Below, in pieces: positions 7,560-11,063 of a DNA stretch of 34,904 nt. The notes under the pieces are model-generated. The model did no database searches. It was not told the origin of the DNA and saw nothing but the letters and a program-made list of their open reading frames with translations. Location: positions 1-34,904 of the forward strand of contig JAFTAB010000172.1 in assembly GCA_017458745.1 (NCBI GenBank). The letters are read 5' to 3'. Position numbers and translations under genes: made by a program. This DNA comes from Schwartzia sp. (in: firmicutes). Lineage in GTDB: Bacteria; Bacillota; Negativicutes; Selenomonadales; Selenomonadaceae. Within the stretch, counting starts at the first letter, position 1. Every line of letters begins with the position of its first letter.

Positions 7560-9446
7560 TTAAATCATATTCTTACGATATGCGTCGTAAAGCTTTTTCA
7601 GTTCCTCCATCTTGTCGTACATTTCAACCTGCAGGCCGGATGCAGTTGCAAAATCTCCTGCATTGAGCGCATTAATCAGCAATGTAAACAGCGATTTCTT
7701 GTCAATGCTGTCCTTGGCAAGTGATGAGCGTATCCCGCTGATCTTCGTCCAGTTGTATGAGTCCTGATCGGTGACGTTATCAGCATCAATTTCTTTCGTG
7801 GCACGGACAATATCACGATTTTCGGGAATTATTCGGCTTATGAGCTCGGTCTTCCAGCGGAGCAGCGCGCCCTCAGCGAATGACTTCAGAATCTTATCGG
7901 AAAGCGCACCGCCTGCTGTGATGACGGCTTTCTTTTCGGGATATGTATTGAGGTTTTCCATGTTCTCGAATACAGTGGCGGGCGGAGCTCCAAAGAGACG
8001 GTCGCGTTCCTCCTCTGTGTAATCCTCAAAAACATCCTCCTCGCTTCTATAGGCACGATTCTTTTCGAGATAAAATCCTTTATCCCCTGGCTTCTTGGAA
8101 AGCTCATCAAGAAGCTCGCCCGTTGATTTTTTGATTGATGCCTTTATGCCGTCAAGAGCCGCCGAGTAAATAGCCGCTAGAGCAATATATGTATTAGTGT
8201 ATGGATTGCAAGCGCGCAATTCAAAGCGGGTTGCCAGCGGATTTTCCGCGTCACGGACAAGTCCGGCAAGAATCGTTCTGTTGCGGGAAGGAATCTCGGG
8301 CGAATGTCCGAGCGAGGTCACTATGCAGACGGGAGCCTCAAAGCCCGGCTTCAATCTGTTGAGTGAATCATTCGTCGCAGAAATAAGCGGATTTATTACC
8401 TCATAGTTTTTGAGCAATCCCATGATTGCGCCATATCCAATTGCGCTCAAATAATCTTTTTTCATGTCCTGTGGAGCGAAAAGATTAATAAGCTTACCAT
8501 CCTTCATCTTGGCGGCCATGCCAAAATGAGTATGCTCGCCATTGCCCGCAAGCCCAATCATCGGTTTTGCCTTGAAATTCACTTCAAGACCGTTTTCACG
8601 GAATATCTCCTTGACAACGGTTCGCACGAGAAGCTCATTATCTGCTGCCTGAAGCGCATCATCGAAACGCCAGTCCATCTCAAGCTGCTCGCAGACGTGC
8701 GATGTCTGCCCCGCCTCGTTGATGTGAGCCTTAAGCCCGCCTACCTCCTTGTGCCCCATCTCAACATCCAGTCCGTATTTTTCGACAAGAAGCACGCTCT
8801 GCTCCAAAGCGGTTCTCACCGCGCCGCGGGTTCTCTGCCAATATTGCTCCTGCATGACCTGCGAGGCGGACATCTCAGCTATGTCAGCTTCCTCGAGAGG
8901 GGTTTTTACCCAAAATTCTAGTTCCGTCGCCGAGGTAAAGACAATATCATCAATATTCGAAGCATCAATATGCTCCAGCCCCGCTATTTTCGGATTAGCC
9001 TTGAAAAGTTCAAGCAACTCTTTTCGCACAAAATCAAGCGTGTCTTTCAGCACGGCACGCGAATCAACACGGTTGCCGTCGTGGATAAGGAACGCCGGAA
9101 TGCGAAGAGTTCCTATCGGCTTTTCGGTCATTTCGTCATAATTCTCAAAATTATAATCTACATACCAATTCACATTTGGATCAATAGGCATATCAACCTT
9201 TGCATTGTTCAGGGTGGCAATGCCGGGAAGGACAACTGATGAGCCATCAGTCTGGACGGCAGTGCCGGCGTAAAAATCATCTATGTCCTTCAAGAAAATA
9301 CGTATAGGTATTTTTTCGTCGGTGTCATTGCCTGCAAGGTCTATCCCCACAAGTGAAACAAATTTTATCTCCGAATGCTCCTTTAGCATGGAGAGAATTT
9401 TTTCCTTATCAGTTCCAGCGGGAATCACATAGAGTAAATCTTCCAT
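7560..9446 (-). CDS. long-form glutamine synthetase (ATP-dependent glutamate-ammonia ligase family)
   Basis: This 628-residue protein has the glutamine synthetase catalytic domain: the ATELEFW glutamate motif, MGHKEVGGLKAHINE, FKAKPMIGLAGNGEHTHFGM around the catalytic histidine, NRLKPGFEAPV, and RFELRACNPYTNTYIALAA near the active-site arginine. Classic GlnA is about 440-470 residues. This one has an N-terminal addition and a long C-terminal helical region (after about residue 480), so it belongs to an atypical long class and may not be the housekeeping enzyme. Starts at 9458 (GTG), 9452 and 9446 are possible; ATG 9446 has the best spacing, 8 bases, from AAAAGGTGG. A good promoter and a terminator-like hairpin lie upstream, suggesting attenuation. 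Confidence 0.88.
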   Translation of the reverse strand: MEDLLYVIPAGTDKEKILSMLKEHSEIKFVSLVGIDLAGNDTDEKIPIRIFLKDIDDFYAGTAVQTDGSSVVLPGIATLNNAKVDMPIDPNVNWYVDYNFENYDEMTEKPIGTLRIPAFLIHDGNRVDSRAVLKDTLDFVRKELLELFKANPKIAGLEHIDASNIDDIVFTSATELEFWVKTPLEEADIAEMSASQVMQEQYWQRTRGAVRTALEQSVLLVEKYGLDVEMGHKEVGGLKAHINEAGQTSHVCEQLEMDWRFDDALQAADNELLVRTVVKEIFRENGLEVNFKAKPMIGLAGNGEHTHFGMAAKMKDGKLINLFAPQDMKKDYLSAIGYGAIMGLLKNYEVINPLISATNDSLNRLKPGFEAPVCIVTSLGHSPEIPSRNRTILAGLVRDAENPLATRFELRACNPYTNTYIALAAIYSAALDGIKASIKKSTGELLDELSKKPGDKGFYLEKNRAYRSEEDVFEDYTEEERDRLFGAPPATVFENMENLNTYPEKKAVITAGGALSDKILKSFAEGALLRWKTELISRIIPENRDIVRATKEIDADNVTDQDSYNWTKISGIRSSLAKDSIDKKSLFTLLINALNAGDFATASGLQVEMYDKMEELKKLYDAYRKNMI

Positions 9447-9486
9447 TTTCATTACCACCTTTTATAAATTTTATAATAAAACCAAA

Positions 9487-9529
9487 AGGCCACACGGCGA
9501 CACGAAAAAAACATGTCGTCGCATGGCCT
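9487..9529 (-). promoter_or_regulatory. terminator-like leader hairpin of the glutamine synthetase gene
   Basis: On the minus strand, AGGCCATGCGACGACATG can pair with CGTGTCGCCGTGTGGCCT at 17 of 18 positions, allowing three G-U pairs, around a loop of seven Ts. It is followed by TTTTGG-TTTTATT. It sits between the candidate promoter and the SD, where it could act as an attenuator. I see no T-box or known riboswitch signature. Confidence 0.6.
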
Positions 9530-9550
9530 CATTGCCAAAATCATGTGTTA

Positions 9551-9579
9551 ATGATATAGCTTAAAAATTTTTTTGTCAA
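9551..9579 (-). promoter_or_regulatory. sigma-A promoter of the glutamine synthetase gene
   Basis: On the minus strand, a consensus TTGACA (9579-9574) and TATCAT (9556-9551) are separated by 17 bases. The predicted RNA start near 9544 leaves a leader of about 100 bases containing the hairpin at 9487-9529. Confidence 0.75.
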
Positions 9580-9620: not shown

Positions 9621-11063
9621 TTAATTTGAAAGTTTCTTTGCAAGCATCTCATTTACCAGCTTGGGGTTTGCTTTTCCCTTTGTCTTTTTCATTATTTGAC
9701 CTACGAGCGCCCCGATTGCCTTTTTATTGCCGCTCTTGTAATCCTCAACAGGCTTCGGGTTAGCCGCAATAACTTCATCCAGTATGCTGTCAAGCTCACC
9801 GGTATCCGTTATTTGGACAAGACCTTTTTCTTTTACAATTTTCTCAGGAGCATCTTTTGATGTCCACATTGCAGAGAATACGTCCTTGGCAATCTTTGAG
9901 GATATTGTTCCATTTGTTATTAGTTTTATCATATCGCCCAAGCGTTTTGCGTCAATCGGCGACTCCTCGATTGTCTTGCTCTCGGCGTTCAGGTTCTTTG
10001 AGAGTTCCCCCATCATCCAGTTGGCAGCCAGCTTCGCGTCAGCGCCCTCCGCGATAACCTCATCAAAATAATCAGCCATGGCACGCGATGAGGTTATTAT
10101 GCCAGCATCATACGAGGACAGCCCAAGCTCGTGCTCCATTCGTTCGCATCGAGCATCAGGCAGCTCGGGCAGCCCTTTTCGATATGCCTCTATCTCCTCG
10201 TCTGTCGTAATTATAGGCGGCAAATCCGGCTCAGGCATATATCTGTAATCCTGTGCCTCCTCCTTGCTGCGCATTGAAAGAGTTATTCCCTTTGCAGCAT
10301 CAAATGTTCGCGTTTCCTGTATCACATGACCGCCATCCTCAAGCACCTCGGTCTGACGCTCTATCTCGTATTCAATCGCCTCCTCAAGAGACTTAAATGA
10401 ATTGATATTCTTCATCTCGGTGCGGGTGCCAAGATCTTTTTGTCCGACAGGGCGCAACGAAACATTTATATCCGCGCGTAGATTCCCCTGCTCCATGCGG
10501 CAATTTGAGACATCTATGTATTCAAGTATTGATTTAATTTTCTCCATGTAGGCTCGTGCCTCTGCCGCCGAGCGCATATCGGGCTCCGACACGATTTCAA
10601 GCAAAGGAACTCCCGTCCTGTTATAATCAACATTCGACGTCGCCGAGTCTTTTATCGTGGTGCCGGAATGAACCAGCTTGCCCGCGTCCTCCTCCATGTG
10701 AATCCGAGTCAGACGGATACGTTTTTTTTCGCCATCAACGTCAATGTCAACATATCCGTGCTCGGCTATCGGCAAGTCATATTGCGAGGTCTGAAAGTTT
10801 TTTGGCAGATCAGGGTAATAGTAATTTTTCCTGTCAAATTTGCTGTATTTGTTTATTGTGCAGTTAGTCGCAAGCCCAGCCTTTATCGCAAATTCGACGA
10901 CACGACGATTGACAACCGGCAGCACTCCCGGCAATCCGAGACAAACCGGGCAGACGTGCGTGTTTTGTTCGGCGCCGAAGCCTGTCGCGCAGCCGCAGAA
11001 AATTTTTGTGTTCGTTTTCAGCTCACTGTGGATTTCAAGTCCTATCACAGCCTCATACTTCAT
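9621..11063 (-). CDS. gatB: aspartyl/glutamyl-tRNA amidotransferase subunit B
   Basis: This 480-residue protein has the usual length of GatB, which binds and phosphorylates misacylated Glu-tRNA(Gln) or Asp-tRNA(Asn) so that GatA-derived ammonia can amidate it. Visible features are the opening EAVIGLEIHSELKT, the zinc-site cysteines in FCGCATGF and HVCPVCLGLPG, KFDRKNYYYPDLPKNFQTSQ, and the YqeY-like tail ending KGKANPKLVNEML. The ATG overlaps the gatA stop as ATGA (11060-11063). GGAGG lies 9 bases upstream. It is the last gene of the gatC-gatA-gatB operon. Confidence 0.97.
   Translation of the reverse strand: MKYEAVIGLEIHSELKTNTKIFCGCATGFGAEQNTHVCPVCLGLPGVLPVVNRRVVEFAIKAGLATNCTINKYSKFDRKNYYYPDLPKNFQTSQYDLPIAEHGYVDIDVDGEKKRIRLTRIHMEEDAGKLVHSGTTIKDSATSNVDYNRTGVPLLEIVSEPDMRSAAEARAYMEKIKSILEYIDVSNCRMEQGNLRADINVSLRPVGQKDLGTRTEMKNINSFKSLEEAIEYEIERQTEVLEDGGHVIQETRTFDAAKGITLSMRSKEEAQDYRYMPEPDLPPIITTDEEIEAYRKGLPELPDARCERMEHELGLSSYDAGIITSSRAMADYFDEVIAEGADAKLAANWMMGELSKNLNAESKTIEESPIDAKRLGDMIKLITNGTISSKIAKDVFSAMWTSKDAPEKIVKEKGLVQITDTGELDSILDEVIAANPKPVEDYKSGNKKAIGALVGQIMKKTKGKANPKLVNEMLAKKLSN

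Follow-up and report, generated by a model that had tools for sequence, protein, structure and literature searches.

How can a gene for glutamine synthetase (GS) be transcribed when an apparent terminator stands between its promoter and its start codon? The question is raised by a leader on the minus strand of a contig of Schwartzia sp. (Negativicutes, Selenomonadaceae; GCA_017458745.1, contig JAFTAB010000172.1), of which positions 1 to 34,904, all 34,904 nucleotides, were analysed and are called the window here. A sequence-only reading had placed a terminator-like hairpin in this leader, which would end transcription before GS unless relieved, and had recognised no known class of relieving signal. 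The analysis presented here leads to the view that the leader is, very probably, a transcription-antitermination switch of a nitrogen regulon, in which a single hexaloop is predicted to be read by an ANTAR protein.

The glutamine synthetase leader and its terminator

The gene (Table 1) is identified as GS by a Pfam Gln-synt_C match (8e-38) within an open reading frame of 632 codons; the protein probably has 628 residues and starts at the ATG at 9446, the start common to relatives, with a further in-frame ATG at 9452. The -35 and -10 boxes, 17 bases apart, match 11 of 12 consensus bases, and their spacing puts the predicted transcription start at about 9544, all starts used in this work, in the window and in relatives alike, having been placed from consensus promoters. 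The leader between this start and the GS gene (9580-9446 region) comprises about 98 bases and reads AUGAUUUUGGCAAUGAGGCCAUGCG from its 5' end. An AAGGTGG-like sequence precedes the GS gene in many relatives.

Table 1. Features of the GS leader and gene in the window.
Feature	Positions	Strand	Details	Basis
-35 box	9574..9579	-	TTGACA	consensus match; promoter aligned over 64 leaders of relatives
-10 box	9551..9556	-	TATCAT	consensus match
P2-type antiterminator hairpin (predicted)	9524..9537	-	UGGC-[AAUGAG]-GCCA; loop 9533-9528 with A1 and G4	sequence, energy, conservation
Intrinsic terminator hairpin (predicted)	9486..9530	-	5' arm 9530-9512, loop 9511-9505, 3' arm 9504-9486	folding energy
U-rich tract 3' of terminator	9475..9487	-	UUUUGGUUUUAUU	sequence
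Ribosome-binding site	9455..9460	-	AGGTGG	sequence
Glutamine synthetase gene	7560..9446	-		Pfam Gln-synt_C match; start common to relatives

The hairpin is real, as are the promoter and the GS match on either side of it. The segment 9447-9545 folds on the minus strand at -32.4 kcal/mol compared with a mean of -19.8 kcal/mol (standard deviation 3.1) for shuffled sequences (z -4.1), none of the 200 shuffles folding as low, and the terminator hairpin by itself folds at -28.0 kcal/mol. Its stem, given earlier as 17 of 18 positions paired, comes close to that description, with 11 + 7 base pairs and one A-C mismatch; the all-U loop (UUUUUUU) and the downstream UUUU and UUUUAUU tracts are present as described. 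Transcription would thus be expected to stop before GS unless the structure is relieved, and the element is a real, predicted conditional terminator (attenuator) that is conserved in relatives.

A single hexaloop predicted to exclude the terminator

That the leader belongs to no established RNA family holds as far as covariance models go: Rfam models, including those of the T-box and the glutamine riboswitch, gave no match in the window at gathering score, and a search at E up to 5 over 17 leader loci found no leader RNA above its own gathering score. Besides itself, the 133-base leader has only short partial matches in its own genome. The ANTAR twin hexaloop is likewise absent from the leader, as had been noted. 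What had been missed is one ANTAR-type hexaloop, AAUGAG, which overlaps the terminator.

This hairpin, named P2 after its counterpart in known ANTAR leaders, has a stem of four pairs and a six-base loop with A at position 1 and G at position 4, which is the recognition signature of ANTAR proteins according to the available text of PMC3369931. Its 3' arm GCCA (9527-9524) is part of the 5' arm of the terminator, and the two hairpins are therefore mutually exclusive. By itself P2 folds at -4.3 kcal/mol; the whole leader reaches -32.4 kcal/mol with the terminator and -25.0 kcal/mol with P2 enforced. Since the energies favour the terminator, termination is the predicted default and P2 would need to be stabilised. 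The sequence also agrees with the minimal ANTAR site of a single hexaloop as redefined, in the part of it available, by PMC8934654, with a G4 in the loop that could stack on the conserved tyrosine, and the equivalents of the RNA-contacting residues, this tyrosine among them, in the regulator described below. Relief of the terminator most likely occurs by ANTAR binding to this single hexaloop.

The missing first hexaloop

Described ANTAR antiterminators have a pair of hexaloops, P1 and P2, and eutP is no longer induced once P1 is deleted (PMC3369931, available text); in the eut leaders of Enterococcus faecalis the two are reported, in the accessible account, to be separated by a linker of 5 to 12 nucleotides. 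In the window, 7 nucleotides lie between the predicted start and P2, and no P1 with A1 and G4 was found upstream of P2. P1 is likewise missing from nearly all relatives examined: in three sets of leaders, stem-bearing A1/G4 hexaloops upstream of P2 were counted in 4 of 64, 3 of 33 and 2 of 28, where shuffled sequences give 2.8, 1.2 and 0.55. Several of these upstream hexaloops fall within promoter elements. Of the 123 leaders for which a promoter was found, 18 have fewer than 15 bases from the predicted start to P2, too few for a P1 and a linker, and in several leaders (e.g. L259, L263, L265) P2 starts within a few bases of the predicted start. The GS leader of genome G018 (L161) may be a genuine exception with a P1. 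Dual hexaloops near EutB, taken as a positive control for P1, were seen at 2 of 30 loci, both chance-like, and the ability of the P1 rule to find the P1 of eutP is that given by the published description of this hairpin alone. As the defining P1 was looked for and not found, the leader is set apart from ordinary dual-hexaloop ANTAR members.

An ordinary dual-hexaloop target would nevertheless result if the true start lay upstream of the predicted one and a second hexaloop further upstream. The placement of all starts from consensus promoters leaves some room for this, but the scarcity of upstream A1/G4 stem-loops in all three sets speaks against it, as does the position of those in L153 and L269, which by inspection fall in promoter elements; it is improbable, if the strongest of the competitors. 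The apparent P1 hairpins in L153, L267 and L269 were rejected as lying within the promoter region.

The beginning of the transcript is conserved. GUAA occurs there in 31 of 85 GS leaders compared with 5.6 in shuffled ones (in the window at about 9544), and CAU(C/A)A(A/G) at the start of 13 of 21 leaders of ammonium transporter (amt) genes compared with 0.5. A degenerate P1 loop was also envisaged in the conserved sequence AUAG upstream of P2, which is present in 22 of 85 leaders compared with 9.1 in shuffled ones; by inspection AUAG is mostly unpaired, and it is not claimed as such a loop.

A candidate ANTAR regulator and its putative partner kinase

An ANTAR domain (PF03861) scores above its cut-off in 38 of 41 relatives and, across the class, in 204 of 253 genomes (completeness floor 90). 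In the genome of the window, the match (C78:21596-21754, E 3.2e-20) lies in a protein of 196 residues that consists of a receiver and an ANTAR domain, and whose gene is located directly 3' of a PdtaS-type kinase gene with GAF_PdtaS, PAS_8, HisKA_2 and HATPase domains. Of 30 loci, 28 have a HisKA_2-type kinase motif next to the ANTAR gene. In genome G002, the ANTAR gene follows a GS gene at a distance of about 0.6 kb on the same contig (C168).

Among proteins of solved structure, those that come nearest are Rv1626/PdtaR (1S8N, 7.6e-60), the closest regulator, and EutV (6WSH, 4.7e-44), and the kinase shares the domain type GAF_PdtaS with the mycobacterial PdtaS-PdtaR system, which we take to be Rv3220c-Rv1626. 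The residues by which EutV contacts RNA are R142, K143, K147, K149, E160, Y164 and M172 (PMC8934654, as far as available). Six of them, R142, K143, K149, E160, Y164 and M172, are kept in the protein of the window's genome and K147 is replaced by R; this mapping was read from the alignment and assumes that the numbering is shifted by 2.

Conservation across the Negativicutes

Comparison of the leader across related genomes, proposed earlier as a way to look for an alternative antiterminator fold, revealed the layout of promoter, leader and terminator in most relatives and the overlapping hexaloop hairpin as that alternative fold. (An initial search pattern with GG(C/T)TTTT failed to pick up the site in the window and returned a single match that looks like chance.) While P2 is mostly GGC-RNNGNN-GCC in GS leaders of the Selenomonadaceae, it is GUC-AANGNN-GAC in many other families of the class, a compensatory change. 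Outside the ANTAR-negative set, GS leaders contain 116 complementary hairpins of the form G.C-N6-G.C; a purine at position 1 together with G4 is seen in 100 of them, and A1 with G4 in 90. With the middle pair of the stem left free and the loop anchored (n=93), this pair is GC in 63, UA in 27, a wobble in two and a mismatch in one, Watson-Crick thus in 90 of 93. The covariation speaks for P2 in its own right, since the 5' arm of P2 lies outside the terminator.

A strict rule, which demands a hexaloop and a terminator starting in or beside its 3' arm, is satisfied by 24 of 27 and 33 of 43, together 57 of 70, GS leaders of ANTAR-bearing genomes, these sets being leaders of sampled loci within the class and not of all class genomes, with the motif absent in the other 13; the corresponding numbers are 3 of 53 for ANTAR-lacking genomes and 2 of 1110 for shuffled leaders. 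The comparison of bearing and lacking genomes is not phylogenetically independent, because the negatives come mostly from three genera (g9, g13 and g46). The negative set takes in second GS copies and genome G013, whose ANTAR match is below cut-off; the ANTAR-negative genomes G064 and G097 have no GS match, L164 was left out of the count as it repeats the L037 region, and of 68 distinct leaders that carry the motif, four (L063, L016, L094 and L106) were dropped from the leader alignment, having no promoter within the set distance.

Counted by lineage, about seven ANTAR-less lineages are without the motif and two keep it. One of these is genus g43, where the complete genomes G153 and G154, of two species, carry a hexaloop and a terminator before GS (GGC-AGCGUU-GCC in L198 and L197, respectively) and have no detectable ANTAR protein; this genus is a real counter-example to a strict coupling of motif and ANTAR protein. 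The other, G150, is doubtful: it is a fragmented metagenome-assembled genome, and further members of its genus (G007, G151 and G152) possess the gene. In the ANTAR-less genus g9 (L150, L215-L217, L219, L220 and L223) the hexaloop is gone and a terminator-like hairpin is kept right before the GS ribosome-binding site, which is why a hairpin in a GS leader is by itself no proof of ANTAR control.

The hexaloop may also be conceived as a regulatory antiterminator whose reader is not an ANTAR protein but a small RNA or an RNA-binding protein of a different kind. Genus g43, the absent P1 and the conserved 5' transcript segment all fit such a reader, but the loop is the exact ANTAR signature, the motif tracks the presence of the ANTAR protein in most lineages and the EutV contact residues are conserved, and we consider this unlikely, slightly more so than a hidden second hexaloop.

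Still less probable is that the hairpin merely terminates the upstream gatCAB operon, promoter and hexaloop being coincidental. GatB does end at 9621, 90 bases before the hairpin, and read-through from gat would meet the terminator too; on the other hand, the terminator sits downstream of a good GS promoter, and of the 104 relatives whose upstream sequence is long enough, just 3 have GatB there. As 79 of the other 101 leaders carry the motif (strict GGC/GUC pattern), the element is tied to GS rather than to the gene upstream. Classical leader-peptide attenuation is very improbable indeed: a 30-codon frame is open from the ATG at 9544 through the terminator (9452-9544, minus strand), its end overlapping the upstream in-frame ATG of GS, but it leaves no room for a ribosome-binding site if transcription starts at 9544, has no glutamine codon, has a comparable frame in only 34 of 100 GS leaders and is thus not conserved, and would leave the conserved hexaloop unexplained.

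Ammonium transporter and other leaders

The single-hexaloop switch does not seem to be confined to GS. A model of promoter and hexaloop found further sites in 25 genomes. To judge by eye from the translations, these sites lie in front of genes for ammonium transporters and for a xanthine/uracil-type permease, a GltB-like gene and others, and of these further targets only the ammonium transporter family was counted against shuffles. A hexaloop with an overlapping terminator is present in 28 of 31 amt leaders (PF00909 loci) compared with 6 of 620 shuffles, and the amt leader of the window's own genome carries the element as GAC-AAUGGC-GUC. Upstream of that hexaloop (L335, 200-800, minus strand) a strong hairpin with a CCCAA loop can, by eye, be formed, in the place of P1 and without the P1 loop signature.

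Two or more hexaloops occur in 17 of 30 amt leaders (L275-L304); leaders such as L276, L277, L290 and L294 have two or three, the second usually being GAC-AANGNN-GUC. They are apparently tandem antitermination modules, several with one terminator per hexaloop by inspection. The sites found by the promoter-hexaloop model include some with promoter, hexaloop and terminator before DUF3870-like, NCS2-like permease, GltB-like, chemoreceptor-like and unknown genes (L191, L192, L193, L183, L179 and L194; identities by eye).

Control of a eut operon in the manner of EutVW was considered and rejected. The system is not of the ethanolamine type, since EutB is rare in the class (34 of 253 genomes) and was not found in the genome of the window, which is 82.7% complete.

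Proposed mechanism and relation to known systems

The reading of the GS leader as a single-hexaloop switch draws on exclusive predicted folds, a conserved loop with a covarying stem, the association with nitrogen genes and with an ANTAR gene, and the kept contact residues. From these we infer a course of events that includes the ANTAR binding, its phosphorylation trigger, the signal and the direction of regulation. By default, the nascent RNA would fold the terminator and transcription would halt before GS. Upon a signal, probably nitrogen need, the partner histidine kinase would lead to phosphorylation of the ANTAR protein, which would bind the single hexaloop AAUGAG as the loop emerges. The P2 hairpin thus stabilised would withhold its 3' arm from the terminator, and RNA polymerase would continue into GS. 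In the window's genome and in most Negativicutes examined, the amt gene is preceded by this element as well.

The nearest described counterparts are EutV and EutW with the eut leaders of Enterococcus faecalis (PMC3369931, PMC8934654, both as available in part), which share the six-base A1/G4 loop, a P2 stem that overlaps an intrinsic terminator, and a receiver-ANTAR regulator beside a histidine kinase with conserved RNA-contact residues; unlike them, the window's leader is without P1 and P1-P2 linker, and the targets are GS and amt, not eut. NasR/nasF and AmiR/amiE (PMC3369936, in its available part) likewise have an ANTAR-relieved terminator before nitrogen genes, but their leaders possess P1 and P2 and their regulators use NIT or pseudo-receiver domains. 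From the close mycobacterial PdtaS-PdtaR pair the system differs in its RNA, as actinobacterial ANTAR RNAs are reported to be dual stem-loops of which few lie upstream of a terminator (PMC8164766, as far as its accessible text goes). The survey in PMC3369931, to the extent available, lists ANTAR RNAs with two hexaloops that stand, in other bacteria, upstream of genes for glutamate/glutamine synthase and for ammonium transporters, the same kinds of target; leaders like that of the window are not expected to score there, because its search model called for two hairpins, each with three pairs or more.

In the literature searched, no description of ANTAR leaders in Negativicutes, Selenomonas or Veillonella was met among the papers listed (Table S2 of PMC3369931 may hold a match from the class), nor anything on an ANTAR hexaloop with an ammonium transporter; searches for ANTAR with glnA antitermination or a glutamine synthetase leader gave nothing on Negativicutes among the papers listed.

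Implications for nitrogen control in the Negativicutes

The available part of PMC8934654 argues that an ANTAR dimer binds only one hexaloop at any given moment, and ties single sites to cases free of the time limit of transcription. We lean, with some reservation, towards a class-wide ANTAR nitrogen regulon of the Negativicutes in which one hexaloop serves at once to recruit the regulator and to form the antiterminator, contrary to the requirement for two loops when a moving polymerase limits the time. In amt leaders, two modules of single loop and terminator would be stacked in series, and the conserved single-stranded 5' segment may replace P1. As natural single-hexaloop sites directly before terminators, with many orthologues, the GS and amt leaders make these ideas directly testable, and they are candidates for the means by which Negativicutes regulate glutamine synthetase and the uptake of ammonium.
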